A stretch of DNA of 64,000 nucleotides, taken from contig LNIY01000074.1 of assembly GCA_001449105.1 (NCBI GenBank), positions 1 through 64,000 on the forward strand, read 5' to 3'. A program made the translations under genes and the position numbers. The stretch is from Caulobacter vibrioides (GTDB lineage Bacteria > Pseudomonadota > Alphaproteobacteria > Caulobacterales > Caulobacteraceae). The notes under the pieces are model-generated. The model searched no databases. It was not told the origin of the DNA and saw nothing but the letters and a program-made list of their open reading frames with translations. Of this stretch, positions 5,560 through 48,129 are shown piece after piece (position 1 is the first letter of the stretch; every line of letters starts with the position of its first letter).

Positions 5560-7905
5560 TCATGCGCGCTTGAGCACGCCGTCACGCGCCACGAGGCGCA
5601 CGCGCTGGCCCTTGCTGAGGTCGAGGTCCAGCGTCGAGCCGGCCAGGACGACGGTGTGCCTGCCGGCCTCCCTGGCGGTCAGTACGGCCTCGGTCAGCTT
5701 GCCGCCGCTCCAGCGCACGTCGACGCCGACCGCGCCCCGGGCGCGCAGGCCGGTCATGGCGCCGGTCGGCCAGGCCGAGGGCAGGGCCGGCAGCAGGTAG
5801 ATACGGTCGTTGCGGCTTTGAATGACCATTTCCGTCATGCCCGAGGCGCCGCCGAAATTGCCGTCGATCTGGAACGGCGGGTGGGCGTCGAACATGTTGG
5901 GATAGGTGCGCTCGGGGCCGAGCAGCAGCCGCAGGATGCTGTGGGCCCGGTCGCCGTCGCCCAGCCGCGACCACAGGTTCAGGCGCCAGGCGATGGCCCA
6001 GCCTGTCGACAGGTCGCCGCGCGTGACCAGCGAGGTCTTGGCGGCCTTGGCGAGGTCGGGCGTGGTGTCGACCGATATCTGGTCGGACGGGAACAGGCCG
6101 TAGAGGTGCGAGACGTGGCGGTGATGGATGTCGTTGGCGTCGGCGTCCCAATCCTCCTGCCACTCCTGAAGCTGGCCGTCCTTGCCGATCTTGTAGGGCG
6201 CGAGCTTGTCGCGGGCGGTGCGGACCTCGGCGAGGAAGGCGGCGTCCGGACCCAGGATCGCCTCGGCCTTCAGGCAATTGTCGAACAGGTCGCGGATGAT
6301 CGCCTGGTCCATGGTCGGGCCCGCGACCAGGGACGAGCCGTGGCCGTGGTTGTTCTCGGGCGAGATCGACGGGTTGGTGACCAGCACGCCGAACTTCGGG
6401 TCGACCACCAGGGTGTCGAGGAAGAACCGGGCCGAGCCCTTCATCAGCGGATAGACGCGGGCCAGATAGGCCTTGTCGCGACTGTAGTCGTAGTGGTCCC
6501 AGACGTGCTTGCACAGCCAGGCGCCGCCGGTGGGCCAGACGCCGAACTTGGCCCCGTCGATCGGGCCGGTGGCTCGCCACAGGTCGGTGTTGTGGTGGGT
6601 GACCCAGCCGCGCGCGCCGTACATGGCCTTGGCCATGCGCTCGCCGGTCTGGGCGATGTCGGAAACCAGCGCGATCAGCGGTTCGACCAGTTCGGGCAGG
6701 TCGGTCGGCTCGGCCGGCCAGTAGTTCATCTCGGTGTTGATGTTGATCGTGTACTTGCCGCCCCAGGGCGCGAAGGTCTTGTCGTTCCAGATGCCCTGCA
6801 GGTTGGCCGGCTGGCTGCCCGGGCGCGAGCAGGCGATCAGCAGGTAGCGGCCGTACTGGAAGTAAAGCGCGGCCAGAGACGGATCGTCGGTGGTTGGCGA
6901 CTGGCGGATGCGCTCGTCGGTGGGCAGGAGGTCGGCGCGGGTGCGGCCGAAGTCGACGCCGACGCGGCGGAAGAGGGCGCGGTGATCGGCCTGGTGTTCG
7001 GCCAGGATCTTCGACCAGGGCTTGCCGGACAGCTTGGCCAGCGTGTCCTTGTTCAGCGCGGCCGGGTCGCCCGAGACGTCGTCGTAGCGGCGATAGCTGG
7101 TGGCGGCGGCGATCAGCAGCAGCACCTCGTCGGCGCCCGTCACCGACAGCTTGCCGCCGGAGCCCGAGACCTGGCCGCCCTTGGCGCGGACCTCGACGCG
7201 GGTCTCGAAGGTCAGGCGGGCGTCGATGCCCTGCGAGGCCTCGTTCTTGCCCGCGAGGATCAGGTGCGCGCCCTCGACCGACGAGACGGGCCTGGATTTC
7301 AGCGGCGAGGAAAAGGACAGGTCGACCGATACCGCGCCCTTGCGGCTGGCGGTCAGGCGCACGGCGATGACGCCGTCGGGATGGCTGGCGATCACTTCGC
7401 GCACATGGCTGACGCCGCCGGCGGTGAAGCGGGTCGTAGCGATGGCGCCGTCGAGGTCGAGATCGCGGACATAGGCCTGCCCGGCCTCGGGCAGGCCCGG
7501 GAAGTCGAGCTTCAGGTCGCCGATGGTCTGGTAGGACATCTGGCGCTTGGGCAGCGCCATGAACTTGGCGTCGGCCAGTTCGGTGGCCTTGACGTATTCG
7601 CCCGCGTCGATCAGGCGGCGGATCTCGGGCAGGGCGCCTTGGGCCTCGGGGTTGATCGGCTCGTACGGGCCGCCGGCCCAGAGGGTGTCTTCGTTGAGTT
7701 GCAGGCGCTCGGCCGCGACGCCGCCGAAGATCATGGCGCCCAGCTTGCCCGAGCCGACGGGCAGGGCCTCGACCCATTCCCTGGCCGGCTGGCGATACCA
7801 CAGGCGCGGGGCGGCGGCTTTCGAGGCGGCGGCCCGCGCGGGCGAGGCGGCGACCAGGGAGACGCCGGCGGTGGCGGCCAGGGCGGTTCTGCGGGTCACA
7901 TTCAT
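5560..7905 (-). CDS. GH95 alpha-L-fucosidase, exported by Tat
   Basis: A 781-residue glycoside hydrolase family 95 enzyme. The family N-terminus is clear (LWYRQPAREWVEALPVGSGK near 35-54, LQLNEDTLWAGGP at 68-80). Active-site blocks follow: NINTEMNYWPAE (388-399), QEW with the probable acid Glu581, HRHVSHLYGLFP (about 595-606) and DGNFG (681-685). A twin-arginine signal (TRRTALAATAG) ends at about residue 27, so it should work in the periplasm or outside. Expected activity is inverting release of L-fucose, mostly 1,2-linked; L-galactosidase activity is known in the family. It follows the mutarotase by 64 bases and is followed by the propeller glycosidase. Confidence 0.9.
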   Translation of the reverse strand: MNVTRRTALAATAGVSLVAASPARAAASKAAAPRLWYRQPAREWVEALPVGSGKLGAMIFGGVAAERLQLNEDTLWAGGPYEPINPEAQGALPEIRRLIDAGEYVKATELADAKFMALPKRQMSYQTIGDLKLDFPGLPEAGQAYVRDLDLDGAIATTRFTAGGVSHVREVIASHPDGVIAVRLTASRKGAVSVDLSFSSPLKSRPVSSVEGAHLILAGKNEASQGIDARLTFETRVEVRAKGGQVSGSGGKLSVTGADEVLLLIAAATSYRRYDDVSGDPAALNKDTLAKLSGKPWSKILAEHQADHRALFRRVGVDFGRTRADLLPTDERIRQSPTTDDPSLAALYFQYGRYLLIACSRPGSQPANLQGIWNDKTFAPWGGKYTININTEMNYWPAEPTDLPELVEPLIALVSDIAQTGERMAKAMYGARGWVTHHNTDLWRATGPIDGAKFGVWPTGGAWLCKHVWDHYDYSRDKAYLARVYPLMKGSARFFLDTLVVDPKFGVLVTNPSISPENNHGHGSSLVAGPTMDQAIIRDLFDNCLKAEAILGPDAAFLAEVRTARDKLAPYKIGKDGQLQEWQEDWDADANDIHHRHVSHLYGLFPSDQISVDTTPDLAKAAKTSLVTRGDLSTGWAIAWRLNLWSRLGDGDRAHSILRLLLGPERTYPNMFDAHPPFQIDGNFGGASGMTEMVIQSRNDRIYLLPALPSAWPTGAMTGLRARGAVGVDVRWSGGKLTEAVLTAREAGRHTVVLAGSTLDLDLSKGQRVRLVARDGVLKRA

Positions 7906-7969
7906 CTTGTCGCCGTGCCTCGTTCTGAAAGCGAAAACAATCGTGGTGTCGGGAAGAGCGGCCGCAAGC

Positions 7970-42100: not shown

Positions 42101-43384
42101 ATGAACAAACTTCATGTTGTGTGTGCGGGCCTCGCGGCCCTGGCCTGGGCTAGCGGCGCGAGCGCCGAGGAGGCGTCGCTGCTGGATGCGGTGAAGGCCG
42201 GCAAGCCGCTGCTGGAGATCCGCGCCCGCTTCGAGCGCTACGAACAGACCAAGACCGCCACCCTGCGCAACAACGCCGAGGGCACGACGGTGCGCACGCG
42301 CTTCGGCTGGGAGACCGGCGCCTGGCATGACGTGAAGGCCCTGATCGAGTTCGACGACGTCCGCCGCGTCGGCCCCGAGCACTTCGCCATCACCGCCCCG
42401 GGCGTCTCCACGCCGCTGAACGGCGCCGACAAGGCCCGCTTCCCGGCGATCAACGATCCCAACGTCACCGAGGTGAACCGCGCCCAGCTGCAATGGACGC
42501 CCAGCAAGGCGCTGCAGCTGACCGCCGGCCGCCAGAAGATCCAGTTCGACGACCAGCGCTTCGTCGCCGCCGCCGCCTGGCGTCAGGACGAGCAGACCTA
42601 TGACGGCCTGCGCGCCGACCTGTCGCTGAGCCGCTTCAAGGGAACCTACGTCTACGTGACCCGGGTCAACCGGGCGCTGGGCGAGCGGCGCGACTGGGAC
42701 AGCGACAGCCATTTCCTCAACACCAGCTGGACCTTTGGCGAGGCCTTGAAAGCCACCGCCTTCGTCTACGCCCTGGATTTCTCGGACTCGCCGCTGAACA
42801 CCTCGATCACCAAGGGCGTGCGTGGCGCGGGCAAGGCCAAGGCCGGCCCCTACACCCTGACCTATTCCGGCGGCTTCGCCCGCCAGAGCGACTATCACCG
42901 CGCCACCGCCGACTATGAGCTCGACTATCTGGGCGGCGAGATCGCGGCCACGCGCGGGATCTATACGGCCCAGCTGGGCTACCACGCGCTGGAGGGCGAC
43001 GGCACGCGGGGCTTCGGCGCGCCGCTGGGCGCGGCTCACGGCTTCTATGGCTGGGCCGACGCCTTTTCGTCGCTGGGCGGCAACAAGAGCTTCGCCACCG
43101 GCCTCGACGACCTGAACTTCACCGTTACGCTCAAGCCGAAGATCAAGGTCCGCAACTTCTCCAGCCCCGAGCTGCTGGTTCGCTACCACGACTTCGACGA
43201 CGACCGTACGGGCGCCGACCTCGGTCATGAGTGGAACGCCCAGCTGACCGCGACCATCGCTCCCAAGCTGTCGGCCCAGCTGAAGTATGCGGGATTCGAC
43301 CGGGTGCAGAGCGTGCCGACCGGAACCCTGACGCCGCCCGCGTCGCGCAAGAAGGTGTGGTTCACCCTCGAGTACAAGCTCTGA
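42101..43384 (+). CDS. Alginate-export-family outer-membrane porin, copy 1
   Basis: A 427-residue beta-barrel protein of the AlgE-like 'alginate export' family with a signal peptide (cleavage after ASA22). Alternating-strand sequence runs to a terminal aromatic-bearing strand (VWFTLEYKL). It is a close paralogue of 43684-45051: both share GKPLLEIR/GKPILEVR, RDWDSDSH, FVYALDF and the same C-terminus. Position before a nitrate-type ABC transporter suggests a nitrate or anion porin rather than polysaccharide export. Confidence 0.82.
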   Translation: MNKLHVVCAGLAALAWASGASAEEASLLDAVKAGKPLLEIRARFERYEQTKTATLRNNAEGTTVRTRFGWETGAWHDVKALIEFDDVRRVGPEHFAITAPGVSTPLNGADKARFPAINDPNVTEVNRAQLQWTPSKALQLTAGRQKIQFDDQRFVAAAAWRQDEQTYDGLRADLSLSRFKGTYVYVTRVNRALGERRDWDSDSHFLNTSWTFGEALKATAFVYALDFSDSPLNTSITKGVRGAGKAKAGPYTLTYSGGFARQSDYHRATADYELDYLGGEIAATRGIYTAQLGYHALEGDGTRGFGAPLGAAHGFYGWADAFSSLGGNKSFATGLDDLNFTVTLKPKIKVRNFSSPELLVRYHDFDDDRTGADLGHEWNAQLTATIAPKLSAQLKYAGFDRVQSVPTGTLTPPASRKKVWFTLEYKL

Positions 43385-43405
43385 GATCGTCCGTGAGGAG
43401 AGGAG

Positions 43406-43426
43406 GGCGCCCGGTTTGCGGGCGCC
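43406..43426 (+). terminator. Hairpin after porin 1
   Basis: GGCGCCCG and CGGGCGCC pair (8 bp, loop GTTTG) 22 bases after the porin 1 stop. There is no T-run, so it may be a weak terminator or an mRNA-stabilising hairpin. Confidence 0.4.
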
Positions 43427-43436
43427 GCCCAAGCTT

Positions 43437-43451
43437 TGGGCGCCGTGCTGC
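43437..43451 (+). promoter_or_regulatory. Sigma-54-like promoter candidate
   Basis: TGGGCGCCGTGCTGC keeps the GG-N10-GC spacing of -24/-12 promoters and matches TGG and TGC of the consensus. It lies about 95 bases upstream of the ANTAR-type leader hairpins. Nitrogen genes with NtrC control often use this arrangement. GC-rich DNA makes chance matches possible. Confidence 0.35.
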
Positions 43452-43545
43452 TGCGCAAAAACCGGCGCCGCACCTGCGAAACGACCGATAACGACGGTTT
43501 GTCGATTGCCGTCCCCCGGCGGTCGGTGCGTCCCTGATCACGACA

Positions 43546-43665
43546 CGCGGGGCAACGACGTTCCGCGAGGGGGCCGCAAGGCCCCGACGCCGACGACGGG
43601 GTCGGCGACTGTTTTGGACAACGACGTCCGGAGGGGGCTCACGCTCTCGCCGGGCGTTTTTTTTT
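43546..43665 (+). ncRNA. ANTAR-type (NasT/NasR) antiterminator leader with overlapping terminator
   Basis: Two hairpins carry the identical hexaloop AACGAC, with A at loop position 1 and G at position 4, the ANTAR RNA signature. P1 is CGCGGGGC-AACGAC-GTTCCGCG (43546-43567, 8 bp with two G-U pairs). P2 is TTTGGAC-AACGAC-GTCCGGA (43613-43632, 7 bp). The 3' arm of P2 is also the 5' arm of an intrinsic terminator, CGTCCGG / CCGGGCG (43625-43656), followed by nine T. P2 and terminator are mutually exclusive. The next gene starts 18 bases later. Two further hairpins lie between P1 and P2. Confidence 0.8.
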
Positions 43666-43683
43666 GGCCTGAGGGGAAGAGGC

Positions 43684-45051
43684 ATGAAGACGACGAGGGC
43701 CGGGCTTACGCTCGGCGCTGGGCTCGCGGCGCTGCTGTGGGCCACGGGAACGCACGCCCAGACGACAACGGAAACCGCACCGCCGGCCGCCGAGCCGGAG
43801 GCCGTGGCGGAAGCGGCCGAACCGCCGCCGCCGCCCGCGCCGCCGCCGACGTTCAGCGACCAGGTGCTGGCCGGAAAGCCGATCCTGGAGGTCCGCTTCC
43901 GCTACGAGGGCGTCGACCAGGCCAACCTGCGCGACAAGGCCTCGGCCTATACGGTGCGCACGCGCCTGGGCTGGGAGACCGGCGACTTCCACGGCCTCAA
44001 GGGCCTGATCGAGTTCGAGGACGTCCGCCAGGTCGGCCCCGAGCACTACGCCGTCAACGTGCCGGGGGCGACCACGCCGCCGCTGAACGGCGCCGACAAG
44101 GCTCGCTATCCGATCGTCAATGATCCTGACGTCACCGAGGTCAACCGCGCCCAGGTGACCTGGACGGCCGGCGCGGCCTTCCAGCTGACGGCCGGTCGCC
44201 AGCGCATCGTGCTGGACGACCAGCGCTTCGTCGGCGGCGTGGCCTGGCGCCAGGACGAGCAGACCTTCGACGGCGTCCGCGCCGACTTCGCCCTGGGACG
44301 GGTGAAGGGGACCTACGCCTACCTCACCCACGTCAACCGCATCCTCGGCGAGCTGCGCGACTGGGACAGCGACAGCCACCTGCTGAACGTCACCTGGTCG
44401 CCGGCCGAGGCGCTGCGCCTGCAAGGCTTCGTCTACGCGCTGGATTTCGGAAATTCGCCGATCAACTCGTCGATCACCAAAGGCGCCAAGGCCTCGGGCA
44501 AGACCTGGGTCGGGCTCTATCAACTGGCCTACGGCGCGACCTTCGCCCGTCAGAGCGACTGGCACGGCAATACGGCCAGCTACGACCTCGACTATTGGGC
44601 GGGCGAGGTGGCGGGAACCTTCGACATCTACACCGCCCGCCTGGCCTACGAGCAGCTGGAGGGCGACGGGACGCGCGGCTTCACCACGCCGCTGGGCACC
44701 GTCCACGCCTTCAACGGCTGGTCGGACTCCTGGGTCTCGCCGGGCGGCAACAAGAGCTTCGCCGACGGCCTGAAGGACCTGAACCTCGGGCTCAACGTCA
44801 AGCCGCGCTTCAAGAAGACGTACTTCTTCAACAGCGACCTCCTGGTCCGCTACCACGACTTCGACGACCAGCGCACCGGGGCCGACCTCGGCCACGAGTG
44901 GGAGGTCCAGCTGACCGCGGCGATCACGCCCAAGCTGACCCTGCTGCTGAAGTACGCCGACTTCCAGCGCGAGACGACCGTGCCGGCCGGGACCCTGGCC
45001 CCGCCCGCGTCGCGGACCAAGGCCTGGTTCTCCCTCGAATACAAGCTCTGA
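43684..45051 (+). CDS. Alginate-export-family outer-membrane porin, copy 2
   Basis: A 455-residue outer-membrane barrel protein, paralogue of the preceding porin. It has a signal peptide (cleavage after HAQ26) and an extra Ala/Glu/Pro-rich linker (about 27-58, with PPPPPAPPP) before the barrel. The terminal strand is AWFSLEYKL. It is the first gene of the operon controlled by the ANTAR-type leader and continues into the nitrate-type ABC transporter, so it probably forms the outer-membrane path for the same substrate. Confidence 0.82.
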   Translation: MKTTRAGLTLGAGLAALLWATGTHAQTTTETAPPAAEPEAVAEAAEPPPPPAPPPTFSDQVLAGKPILEVRFRYEGVDQANLRDKASAYTVRTRLGWETGDFHGLKGLIEFEDVRQVGPEHYAVNVPGATTPPLNGADKARYPIVNDPDVTEVNRAQVTWTAGAAFQLTAGRQRIVLDDQRFVGGVAWRQDEQTFDGVRADFALGRVKGTYAYLTHVNRILGELRDWDSDSHLLNVTWSPAEALRLQGFVYALDFGNSPINSSITKGAKASGKTWVGLYQLAYGATFARQSDWHGNTASYDLDYWAGEVAGTFDIYTARLAYEQLEGDGTRGFTTPLGTVHAFNGWSDSWVSPGGNKSFADGLKDLNLGLNVKPRFKKTYFFNSDLLVRYHDFDDQRTGADLGHEWEVQLTAAITPKLTLLLKYADFQRETTVPAGTLAPPASRTKAWFSLEYKL

Positions 45052-45065
45052 GACGGATGGCGATC

Positions 45066-46367
45066 ATGACCAAGACCGACAAGACCGCCCCGCTGGGCGC
45101 TTCCCTGGGCGTCTCGCGCCGCACGGCCCTGATCGGGGCCGCCGCCACCCTCGCCGCCGTCAAGGCCGCGTTCCCGGCCGGGGCCCATGCCGCCGGGCCG
45201 GGACCCGAAACCGCCAAGGCGCGCCTGGGCTTCATCGCCCTGACCGACTCGTCGCCGCTGATCATCGCCAAGGAACGCGGCTTCTTCGCCAAGCACGGCC
45301 TGCCCGACGTCGAGGTGGTCAAGCAGGCCTCGTGGGCCGCCACGCGCGACAATCTGGTGCTGGGCTCGGGCGGGGGCGGCATAGACGGGGCGCACATCCT
45401 GTCGCCCATGCCGCTGCAGTTCAGCCTGGGCGTCCAGACCGGCGGCAAGCCCTTGCCGATGTACGTGCTGGCCAGGCTCAACACCAACGGCCAGGCGATC
45501 TCGGTCGGCAACGACCTGAAGGCGGTGAAGGTCGGCCTCCAGGCCGGCGGGGCCAAGGCCAAGTTCGCCCAGCTGAAGGCCTCGGGGAACATCGCCAAGG
45601 TCGCCATGACCTTCCGAGGCGGCACCCACGACCTGTGGGTCAGGTACTGGCTGGCCGCGGCGGGCATCAATCCGGACGTGGACGTCTCGACCATCGTCAT
45701 CCCGCCGCCGCAGATGGTGGCCAACCTTAAGGCCGGCACCCAGGACGCCTTCTGCGTGGGCGAGCCGTGGAACGGCCAGACCGTCAACCAGCGCATCGGC
45801 TACACCGCCACCACCACCAGCGAGCTCTGGATGAACCATCCGGAGAAGGCGCTGGGCATGCGGGCCGACTGGGTCGACCGCTATCCGCGCGCCGCCCAGG
45901 CCCTGACCGCCGCCGTGCTGGAGGCCCAGATGTGGTGCGACAAGCCGGCCAACAAGGCGGCCATGTGCTCGATCGTCTCGGGCCGGCAGTACATCAACGT
46001 GCCGATGGGCGACATCCTGCCCCGCCAGCAGGGCGTCATCGACTACGGCGACGGCCGTAAGGTCACGGGCTCGCCGCACGTCATGAAGTTCTGGGCCGAC
46101 AACGCCAGCTTCCCCTTCAAGTCGCACGACCTGTGGTTCGTCACCGAGAACATCCGCTGGGGCGTGATCGGGCAGGGGGTCAACAAGCAGGCCCTGGTCA
46201 ACAAGGTCAATCGTTCGGACATCTGGCGTGCGGCCGCCAAGAGCATCGGCCAGAGCGGTCCGGCCGGCGACAGCCGCGGCCCCGAGCGGTTCTTCGACGG
46301 CAAGGTGTTCGATCCGGCCAATCCGGGCGCCTACCTCGCCAGCCAGCCCATCAAGAAGCTCGTCTGA
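45066..46367 (+). CDS. nrtA: Nitrate-type ABC transporter substrate-binding protein
   Basis: A 433-residue NrtA/CmpA-family binding protein with a twin-arginine signal (VSRRTALIGAAATLAAVKAA). Seen: GFIALTDSSPLIIAKERGFF, WAATRDNLVLGS, GIDGAHILSPMP, MTFRGGTHDLWVRYWLAAAG and AFCVGEPWNGQ, typical of nitrate, nitrite, cyanate or bicarbonate binders. The alphaproteobacterial context and the ANTAR-type leader favour nitrate. An ATG at 45057 is an alternative start. The gap to the porin stop is 14 bases. Confidence 0.88.
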   Translation: MTKTDKTAPLGASLGVSRRTALIGAAATLAAVKAAFPAGAHAAGPGPETAKARLGFIALTDSSPLIIAKERGFFAKHGLPDVEVVKQASWAATRDNLVLGSGGGGIDGAHILSPMPLQFSLGVQTGGKPLPMYVLARLNTNGQAISVGNDLKAVKVGLQAGGAKAKFAQLKASGNIAKVAMTFRGGTHDLWVRYWLAAAGINPDVDVSTIVIPPPQMVANLKAGTQDAFCVGEPWNGQTVNQRIGYTATTTSELWMNHPEKALGMRADWVDRYPRAAQALTAAVLEAQMWCDKPANKAAMCSIVSGRQYINVPMGDILPRQQGVIDYGDGRKVTGSPHVMKFWADNASFPFKSHDLWFVTENIRWGVIGQGVNKQALVNKVNRSDIWRAAAKSIGQSGPAGDSRGPERFFDGKVFDPANPGAYLASQPIKKLV

Positions 46368-46390: not shown

Positions 46391-47329
46391 ATGATCATGA
46401 CCTATCCCAAGCCCGACTTCGCCGAGGCCGCGCCCGTCGCGGCTTCGACGGCGACTTCGGTTGCGGTCGCCTCGCCGGCAACGGCGTCGGCGACGGCGGC
46501 CGCGCCGGCCGCTCCGAAGATCCCCGGAGCGGCCGGCCTCGGCCGGCGGGCGGGGGCGCTGGCCGCCGCCGTCCTGCCGCCGGCCCTGACCCTGCTGGTG
46601 GTGATGGCGGTCTGGCAGGGCCTGTGCGGCGACTCCTACGAGGGCCTGCCGTCGCCCTCGCGGATCTGGCTGGAGTCCAAGGAGCTGATCGTCGACCCGT
46701 TCTACGACCGGGGCGGGGTCGACAAGGGCCTGTTCTGGCACGTGCTGACCAGCCTGAAGCGGGTGGCCGTCGGCTTCTCGATCTCGGCGGTGGTCGGGAT
46801 CGGCCTCGGTGTGCTGATCGGCGCCAACCGCTGGGCGCACCGGGGCCTGGATCCGATCTTCCAGGTGCTGCGCACCGTGCCGCCGCTGGCCTGGCTGCCG
46901 ATTTCGCTGGCGGCCTTCCACGAGGCCAATCCCTCGGCCCTGTTCGTGATCTTCGTCACCTCGATCTGGCCGATCATCATCAACACCGCCGTCGGGGTGC
47001 GGAACATTCCCGAGGACTATCGCAATGTCGCCCGGGTGCTGCGGCTGTCGCCGATCGAATACTTCTTCAAGATCCTGCTGCCCTCGACCACGCCCTACAT
47101 CTTCACGGGCCTGCGGATCGGGGTGGGCATGAGCTGGCTGGCCATCGTCGCCTCCGAGATGCTGCTGGGCGGCGTCGGCGTCGGCTTCTTCATCTGGGAC
47201 CAGTACAACGCCTCGCGCATCTCCGACATCGTCGTGGCCCTGGCGTGGGTCGGCCTGACCGGCTTCTTCCTGGACCGCATCGTCGCCCTCCTGGGCCGCA
47301 TCGTCTCGCGTGGAAACGCGGCGAGCTGA
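46391..47329 (+). CDS. nrtB: Nitrate-type ABC transporter permease
   Basis: A 312-residue BPD_transp_1 permease with about six helices and the EAA loop region (VARVLRLSPIEYFFKILLPS, TPYIFTGLRIGVGMSWLAIV). It forms the inner-membrane channel with the ATPase. The first 45 residues are an unusual Ala/Ser/Thr/Val/Pro-rich low-complexity extension, absent from the core family. AGGAAGGGAG precedes the ATG; the ATG at 46397 is equally possible. The gap to nrtA is 23 bases. Confidence 0.88.
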   Translation: MIMTYPKPDFAEAAPVAASTATSVAVASPATASATAAAPAAPKIPGAAGLGRRAGALAAAVLPPALTLLVVMAVWQGLCGDSYEGLPSPSRIWLESKELIVDPFYDRGGVDKGLFWHVLTSLKRVAVGFSISAVVGIGLGVLIGANRWAHRGLDPIFQVLRTVPPLAWLPISLAAFHEANPSALFVIFVTSIWPIIINTAVGVRNIPEDYRNVARVLRLSPIEYFFKILLPSTTPYIFTGLRIGVGMSWLAIVASEMLLGGVGVGFFIWDQYNASRISDIVVALAWVGLTGFFLDRIVALLGRIVSRGNAAS

Positions 47330-47343
47330 GAAGGACAAGCATC

Positions 47344-48129
47344 ATGGGCAAGGCCTATCTCTCCATCGAGAACCTCGGCGTCACCTTCGGGCACGGCGCG
47401 GGCGCTTCGGAAGTGCTGCGCGGCGTCGAGCTGCAGGTGGCCAAGGGCGAGTTCGTCTCGATCATCGGCCACTCGGGCTGCGGCAAGTCGACCCTGCTGA
47501 ACGTGGTGGCGGGCCTCGTGCCGGCCACGATCGGGGCGGTGATCCTCGACGGCGAGGCCGTCTCCGCGCCGGGGCCGGAGCGGGCGGTGGTGTTCCAGAA
47601 CCACTCGCTGCTGCCGTGGCTGTCGGTGCGCGAGAACGTGCAGCTGGCGGTCGACAAGGTGTTCGCCGGCAAGAAGTCGGCGGCCGAGCGCCGCGAGTGG
47701 ACGCTGCACAACCTCGACCTGGTCAAGATGACCCACGCCAAGGACAAGCGGCCCTCGGAGATATCGGGAGGCATGAAGCAGCGGGTCGGCATCGCCCGGG
47801 CGCTGGCCATGCAGCCCAAGGTGCTGCTGCTGGACGAGCCGTTCGGGGCGCTGGACGCCCTGACCCGCGCCCACCTGCAGGACAGCGTCATGGAGATCCA
47901 GGCGAGCCTGAGCAACACCGTGCTGATGGTCACCCACGACGTCGACGAGGCGGTGCTGCTGTCGGATCGCATCGTGATGATGACCAATGGTCCCCGCGCC
48001 ACCATCGGCGAGGTGCGTCCCGTGGACCTGGCCCGGCCGCGCGACCGTCTGGCCGTGGCGGAGGACGCTTCGTACGTCCACGCCCGGGCGGCGGTGATCG
48101 AGTTCCTCTACACCCGGCGGGCGGCCTGA
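47344..48129 (+). CDS. nrtD: Nitrate-type ABC transporter ATP-binding protein
   Basis: A 261-residue NrtD/SsuB/TauB-type ATPase that powers import. Walker A GHSGCGKST, Q-loop FQNHSLLPWLSV, signature EISGGMKQRVGIARAL, Walker B VLLLDEPFGALD and H-loop VTHDVDEA are all intact. It lacks the extra NrtA-like domain of NrtC. It ends the operon directly at the inverted-end element, whose outer end overlaps its TGA stop. Confidence 0.92.
   Translation: MGKAYLSIENLGVTFGHGAGASEVLRGVELQVAKGEFVSIIGHSGCGKSTLLNVVAGLVPATIGAVILDGEAVSAPGPERAVVFQNHSLLPWLSVRENVQLAVDKVFAGKKSAAERREWTLHNLDLVKMTHAKDKRPSEISGGMKQRVGIARALAMQPKVLLLDEPFGALDALTRAHLQDSVMEIQASLSNTVLMVTHDVDEAVLLSDRIVMMTNGPRATIGEVRPVDLARPRDRLAVAEDASYVHARAAVIEFLYTRRAA

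Follow-up and report, generated by a model that had tools for sequence, protein, structure and literature searches.

A probable NasT-responsive antitermination leader with additional linker hairpins upstream of a nitrate-type porin-ABC transporter operon in Caulobacter

The RNA leaders recognized by ANTAR proteins have been described as dual hairpins joined by a tight linker. In the EutV leaders of Enterococcus faecalis (eutP and others) there are two hexaloop hairpins with A at loop position 1 and G at position 4 (A1/G4), the second overlapping an intrinsic terminator, and ANTAR binding results in read-through (PMC3369931, PMC8934654). The EutV linker measures 5-12 nt, a linker of 14 nt cripples induction (PMC3369931) and the insertion of 20 further nt abolishes antitermination in vitro (PMC8934654), while a curated actinobacterial set used linkers of 2-25 nt (PMC8164766). 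The structure of EutV with its RNA shows G4 stacked on Tyr164 and no specific contact for A1 (PMC8934654); a change of A1 lowered both induction and binding (PMC3369931). Nitrate-responsive ANTAR antitermination acts on nitrate assimilation genes in the NasR-nasF system of Klebsiella oxytoca, where NasR possesses its own nitrate-sensing domain (PMC3369931, PMC5424462). One alphaproteobacterial target of NasT is the nasABGHC leader of Paracoccus denitrificans (PMC5424462), an organism in which nitrate or nitrite dissociates NasS-NasT (PMC3795266, PMC5424462). Here the hairpins HI and HII are located 137 and 91 bp upstream of nasA; HI is required for induction, whereas nitrate still induced almost normally when the second hairpin had been mutated (PMC5424462). 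Furthermore, loss of nasT in Bradyrhizobium caused a rise in the narK-bjgb-flp genes, for which NasT hairpins are predicted (PMC6759348). This rise, taken together with the second-hairpin result from Paracoccus, implies that predicted NasT hairpins need not mean activation.

We describe here a comparable leader in a window of 64,000 nucleotides (the whole stretch of DNA analysed) from Caulobacter vibrioides; the named loci whose NrtA is 97% identical to that of the window are likewise from Caulobacter. Its forward strand contains a first ANTAR-type hairpin (H1, 43546-43567; cgcggggc-AACGAC-gttccgcg, 8 bp, loop at 43554-43559), a spacer hairpin with a GCAA tetraloop (S1, 43570-43585), a middle hexaloop hairpin with the loop GACGGG at 43595-43600 (M, 43588-43607) and an antiterminator hairpin (H2, 43612-43633; ggac-AACGAC-gtcc, loop at 43620-43625), whose stem has a 4-bp core (43616-43619 with 43626-43629) that grows to 8 bp if weak pairs are added. 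These are followed by an intrinsic terminator (43623-43665), with a hairpin at 43623-43658 and nine T at 43657-43665, after which 18 bases (43666-43683) remain before the ATG of porin 2 at 43684. The 5' arm of the terminator hairpin starts inside the H2 loop and includes the 3' strand of the H2 stem, and H2 and the terminator are thus mutually exclusive. An initial annotation of this DNA had recorded the two AACGAC hexaloop hairpins with A1 and G4, the overlap of the terminator 5' arm with the second of them and the position of the leader 18 bases before porin 2-nrtA-nrtB-nrtD, all of which stood up to our analysis; S1 and M were absent from that annotation. Based on its hairpins, the overlap of H2 and the terminator, its conservation and covariation, and the single ANTAR match of the genome with its NasS neighbor, we consider it very probable that the porin 2-nrtABD operon has, at 43542-43665, an antitermination leader of the ANTAR type that responds to NasT.

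The initial annotation had also equated this arrangement with the known architecture of ANTAR-bound RNAs. This holds for the hexaloop pair and the terminator overlap, in both of which the leader resembles those of EutV, but not for the linker. The two AACGAC loops of H1 and H2 are 66 nt apart, and the linker from H1 to the core stem of H2 spans 48 nt (43568-43615; 44 nt with H2 fully extended) with two extra conserved hairpins, one of them a further hexaloop hairpin, as against 5-12 nt in EutV leaders (PMC3369931) and 2-25 nt in the actinobacterial set. The M-H2 linker of 8 nt (4 nt if H2 is fully extended) does fit the short range if M is counted as an ANTAR hairpin. As the published ranges describe other sets and provide no residue-level definition, the leader is better viewed as a variant than as excluded from the ANTAR leaders. 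Wide spacing is shared with HI and HII of Paracoccus; however, that leader controls a reductase operon whereas the Caulobacter leader would control a porin-ABC importer, and the accessible part of the Paracoccus report mentions neither a middle hexaloop nor a GNRA hairpin (PMC5424462). The likeness to NasR-nasF is in nitrate-responsive control, with the difference that in Caulobacter sensing would fall to a separate NasS (PMC3369931, PMC5424462). Two other ANTAR-related RNAs also exceed a plain hairpin pair, namely EutX/Rli55, which has an additional G4 hexaloop (PMC8934654), and the PPE1-5' RNA, which binds the ANTAR protein PdtaR and for which three hairpins are predicted (PMC8131098), but these are described as trans-acting protein-titrating RNAs, unlike the Caulobacter RNA, which is a leader with a terminator. 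Within the open-licence section of PubMed Central we found no ANTAR antitermination leader with three hexaloops, with a folded linker this long, or in Caulobacter. The leader thus appears to be a switch of a known kind, with more hairpins and a wider H1-H2 gap than the textbook cases.

The controlled operon begins with porin 2 of the Alginate_exp family (43684-45051; PF13372), which follows the leader in all 14 congeners with an NrtA ortholog, and continues on the same strand with genes for the nitrate-binding protein NrtA (45057-46367; PF13379), the nitrate ABC permease NrtB (46391-47329; TIGR01183, 325 bits against a cut-off of 209) and the nitrate ABC ATPase NrtD (47344-48129; TIGR01184, 338 bits against a cut-off of 292). 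Among solved structures NrtA is closer to nitrate NrtA (2g29, 521 bits) than to a bicarbonate transporter (2i48, 368 bits). The identity of the transporter given in the initial annotation is therefore upheld, and as judged by these sequence relationships the operon is of the nitrate type. Porin 1 (42101-43384) and porin 2 constitute a tandem of Alginate_exp-family porins, about 55-63% identical across copies; besides the window, a separate upstream porin 1 is seen only in L033, L034, L035 and L037, while porin 2 is present in 14/14 relatives. The word TGCTGNGCAA, which occurs at 43449 in the window, is found 233-242 bases before porin 2 in 10/15 genomes and 200-205 bases before narK in 10/18, and is possibly a shared activator site.

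Since the porin 1 gene that lies before the leader stops at 43384, and since the loop word AACGAC is common in the window (39 sites against 21.3 expected), the structure could in principle be a plain terminator of porin 1 in which hexaloop hairpins have arisen by chance. We regard this as highly improbable, because the leader is kept, with A1/G4 in every case, where no separate porin 1 was found upstream (L036, L038, L039 and L041-L046; with only 863 bases upstream, L040 cannot be assigned). When a script searched the window on both strands for a pair of A1/G4 hexaloop hairpins with a T-run behind them, the leader was the sole match. The H2 core pattern on its own is useless, having 48 matches in the genome against 41 in a reversed control; among the 28 H2-core match loci of the genome that were scanned, an upstream hexaloop and a T-run occur together only at the leader in the window. 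The 191-nt fold is moderately better than those of shuffled sequences (z -2.29; 5 of 200 shuffles equally good). Folding and an ANTAR covariance model had been put forward as checks in the initial annotation. In minimum-energy folds of growing transcripts H1, S1, M and H2 appear in turn, H2 being seen for ends between 43629 and 43650; once the transcript reaches 43656 the terminator takes over, and at 43665 the leader reaches -68.0 kcal/mol with the terminator versus -61.9 with H2 forced. The covariance check, for its part, produced no match over the leader for any Rfam family at gathering score in a search of the whole window. Searches by E-value over 43380-43700 and the nasS-narK gap yielded nothing above chance, the best match having an E-value of 0.84, far under its gathering score, and that in the gap being chrB-a, whose 18.9 bits stay below its gathering score of 43.9. 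We therefore built a covariance model (R1) of our own. With the fold and the loop word being weak indicators, it is the comparative evidence that we take as strong and decisive support for the leader exceeding chance.

This evidence comes from 61 genomes, namely that of the window, 36 congeners and 24 others from the order. An NrtA ortholog, defined by a match above 800 bits, is present in 15 of them (our genome and 14 of the 36 congeners), and the leader precedes the porin in all 15. A1 and G4 are invariant in both the H1 and H2 loops of these 15 leaders. The H1 loop varies at positions 5 and 6 (AACGAA, AACGAT, AACGGC) and its stem covaries, and the H2 loop is AATGGC in L041, again with A1 and G4 retained. 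In the alignment of the 15 leaders (A2) standard pairs occupy 97.7% of cells and two-sided changes are seen at 12 of 29 pairs. Its covariation score of 0.343, compared to 0.197 +/- 0.015 after shuffling, was reached by none of 500 shuffles, which take no account of relatedness among the leaders; the count of further pair types is a weaker point, being matched by 26 of 500. In the terminator the nine outer pairs are formed in 100% of cells and the inner stem shows two-sided changes, whereas the H2 stem is invariant across the leaders with no covariation of its own. Being nearly invariant, the outer terminator and H2 stems are backed by conservation and not by covariation.

As the initial annotation stated, the window is devoid of a gene for an ANTAR protein. 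It had further held that lack of such a protein in the whole genome would speak against its reading; the genome contains one ANTAR match, NasT on contig C140 (72.9 bits against a cut-off of 27.3), which adjoins nasS within a nitrate-assimilation operon, and the reading is not refuted. The nasT gene overlaps that for the NasS-type protein (PF13379, 280 bits; its PDB relatives belong to nitrate transport), and the two constitute a nasS-nasT pair with a NasS of the NrtA family. Downstream on the same strand is a gene for a NarK-type transporter (TIGR00886, 297.5 bits, just below the cut-off of 311.7). It is followed, still on that strand, by nirB (TIGR02374, 901 bits), an ORF at 7571-7924 that we read as nirD, a gene for a molybdopterin oxidoreductase with a BFD domain that we read as nasA, and cobA (TIGR01469). 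The nasA candidate stays under the cut-off of every NCBIfam model (formate dehydrogenase alpha 477 bits, NasC 420 bits). On the other side of nasT-nasS are a TOBE/HTH ModE-type gene, modA and modB. Structures matched by NasT are 1s8n, 6wsh, NasR (4akk) and AmiR (1qo0), of which we take the first to be Rv1626 and the second to be EutV. In the alignment to EutV the receiver of NasT shows Ala (VVIA) in place of the Asp of the VLMD segment. EutV is activated by phosphorylation, whereas Caulobacter NasT lacks Asp at that position, a difference consistent with regulation by NasS instead of a kinase.

An ANTAR match is found in 30 of the 61 genomes (29 over the cut-off), including all 15 with the leader, and none of the 31 genomes without one has an nrtA ortholog. 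Thus, all 14 congeners with an NrtA ortholog possess both the leader and an ANTAR gene, which supports the reading as an ANTAR leader. In 6 of the 15 (G003, G006, G008, G027, G031, G032) nasT is within 4.3 kb of nrtA on one contig, with the gene order nasT-nasS-leader-porin-nrtABD in G006; in the other 9, G000 included, the two are on different contigs or far apart. An alternative reading, namely an attenuator read by another RNA-binding protein or by the ribosome, draws on the binding of NasT to the leader being deduced by analogy, and on the peaks that NtrC shows in C. crescentus at nasT and in the promoter region of narK (PMC10274813), which indicate that the nitrate pathway is also controlled at initiation. 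However, the A1/G4 hexaloops at both positions and the co-occurrence with an ANTAR gene make such a reader very improbable.

A conserved non-coding element is also present before narK in the nasS-narK gap of C140 (about 11634-11781 of L002, minus strand). It is kept in 18 of 21 nasT loci, those in which narK follows (our genome and 17 of the 20 fetched). Its first hairpin has a hexaloop with A1 and G4 in 18/18 (ggac-AACGGC-gtcc, with gaac/gttc in other species) and is succeeded by two more hairpins with mostly six-base loops; CTGCCAGAG/CTCTCGCAG, which have diverged in L174-L176, enclose these two, and there is no T-run. The element is a possible second NasT target, which would need to act without an intrinsic terminator. 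Control of narK translation through pairing of the Shine-Dalgarno sequence with the third hairpin was considered and rejected, as on reading the pairing is broken in L167 and L169.

By analogy to the published work on NasS-NasT and EutV, we propose that in the absence of nitrate NasS would keep hold of NasT, and that H1, S1, M and, for a short time, H2 would form during synthesis of the RNA. The terminator hairpin would then oust H2 and end transcription before porin 2, such that the default would be no expression of porin-nrtABD. With nitrate, NasS would free NasT, whose dimer might settle on the upstream hexaloops (H1, and perhaps M) before moving onto, or clamping, H2. As long as NasT held H2 the terminator would be unable to form and the operon would be read. 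NasT thus probably grips the row of hairpins and lets transcription past the stop signal.

The linker hairpins merit separate consideration. The H1-H2 linker spans 46-50 nt in the 15 leaders. S1 shows two-sided changes at 4 of its 6 pairs, with the outermost pair broken in 5 of 15 leaders, and a GNRA loop in 14 of 15 (GCAA, GCGA, GAGA and GTAA, with TTGA in L036). In M all 6 of the stem pairs counted show two-sided changes. We read the M loop in 22 leaders, from which L050 and L238 (identical stretches) and L052 (a 5-nt loop) were set aside, leaving 19 distinct Caulobacter leaders with a loop of 6-7 nt. All 19 have G at position 4, and 18 have G at position 1, where the remaining leader has C, every other position being variable; as the window and its five closest relatives (6 of the 19) share one M loop by descent, the independent cases number fewer than 19. 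The M loop is 25 nt upstream of the H2 loop, a spacing like that of compact dual-hairpin leaders (25-26 nt in those of Methylobacterium nrtA, 17-22 nt in other Rhizobiales).

With less certainty than attaches to the leader as a whole, M may serve as a third hexaloop for NasT, or S1 and M may merely draw H1 near H2. In favor of the former, we tentatively suggest that alphaproteobacterial NasT leaders include a multi-hexaloop class with three ANTAR-binding hairpins in a row, along which a NasT dimer would be recruited and then passed to the antiterminator hairpin, bridging long distances stepwise. The Caulobacter M loop with its predominant G1 would still be bound since recognition would rest on G4; the EutV-RNA contacts, with G4 stacked and A1 free of a specific contact, imply that a loop keeping G4 could be bound, perhaps more weakly. 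The contrary proposal, which concerns only the role of M and which we hold just as tentatively, is that H1 and H2 alone bind NasT and that S1 and M are structural elements shortening the path between them. Consistent with this, S1 carries a tetraloop, M has a 5-nt loop in L052 (titled Phenylobacterium, with a Caulobacter-like leader), and in the Phenylobacterium-like L056, L058, L059, L063 and L064 the H1-H2 distance is 62-66 nt (73 in L069), yet the best M loop is of 4 or 5 nt, while L057 has lost S1 and M altogether, with H1 at -26. Less easily accommodated by purely structural roles are the G4 of M, which persists in 19/19 though all stem pairs change, and the A1/G4 middle loops of Asticcacaulis, Reyranella and L055. 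We give the relay through M and the strut equal weight, each somewhat under one half, and leave the remainder to mixtures and to other readers of the RNA.

The spread of three-hexaloop leaders was assessed in 44 leaders, 15 from our own set and 29 of 80 named loci; L049, L051 and L054 were left out as copies of genomes in our set, and 48 further named loci because their leader was compact or they had one hexaloop at most. For 28 of the 80 the script called no leader. By the automatic count, three A1/G4 loops occur in 5/6 leaders of Asticcacaulis, 3/4 of Reyranella/Rhizobium Q54, 3/3 of Microvirga, 1/9 of the Phenylobacterium-like group, 0/18 of Caulobacter (here including L052) and 0/4 of others, against an expectation of 0.05 or fewer per group in dinucleotide shuffles of the counted stretches. 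L065, L101 and L244 appear to be three-hexaloop leaders by eye, outside this automatic count. The cases with loops ending in T, for example AATGAT and AACGAT (Reyranella and Microvirga) or ATCGCT (L244), are weakened by the potential pairing of A1 with position 6, which would leave a tetraloop. As three A1/G4 hexaloops are present in most of the Asticcacaulis, Reyranella and Microvirga leaders examined, we seem to be dealing with an ANTAR leader variant that has several hexaloops. Many Phenylobacterium-like leaders have an M loop of 4 or 5 nt, with A1/G4 retained in H1 and H2; the middle hairpin may accordingly take the form of a full hexaloop, of a hexaloop with G4 or of a plain spacer, or may be missing. 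This pattern would fit either an ancestral three-hexaloop leader that later decayed or a spacer sometimes turned into a binding site. In L242 (about 1570-1600), from another genus of the same family, the antiterminator hairpin has the loop GATGAC, whose G1 is a natural exception to A1. L244 (minus strand), from another family of the order, has a compact leader with possible hexaloops AATGGC, ATCGCT and AACGAC at 47, 27 and 0 nt from the last loop, the middle one of which could equally be a tetraloop.

R1, which was built from A2 and run on 44 of the 80 named loci, gave two matches in our genome, a strong one (E 2.8e-35) and another on C85 that is weak (E 0.054). Of the 398 genomes of the order it detected 18 at E <= 1e-3, and 12 of these, our own included, belong to the genus; L231, L232, L234, L235, L236, L239 and L240 were left out as repeats of leaders already in the set, and at least one of the weakest matches, L247 (E 6.5e-4 in the same search), looks false, with no hexaloop pair on reading, and was dropped. 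Across the class 22 of 385 genomes matched at E <= 0.1, mostly weakly. A pattern of the middle hairpin plus H2 matched 87 of 385 alphaproteobacterial genomes, with the control columns matching too, and was not used as evidence.

For nitrate uptake in Caulobacter, our observations point to a likely switch together with its sensor pair and target operon. They also suggest that scans restricted to short linkers and to A1/G4 in every loop could miss NasT targets. With canonical loops 66 nt apart and a covarying G4 hexaloop hairpin between them, the leader offers a natural way to test which bases of the loops are important, and whether two hairpins are gripped together by the protein or the protein is handed on from hairpin to hairpin, as in a published model (PMC8934654). 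If the multi-hexaloop relay were true, recruitment would be physically separate from antitermination, and the model of ANTAR action on one hexaloop at a time would become testable within a single leader.
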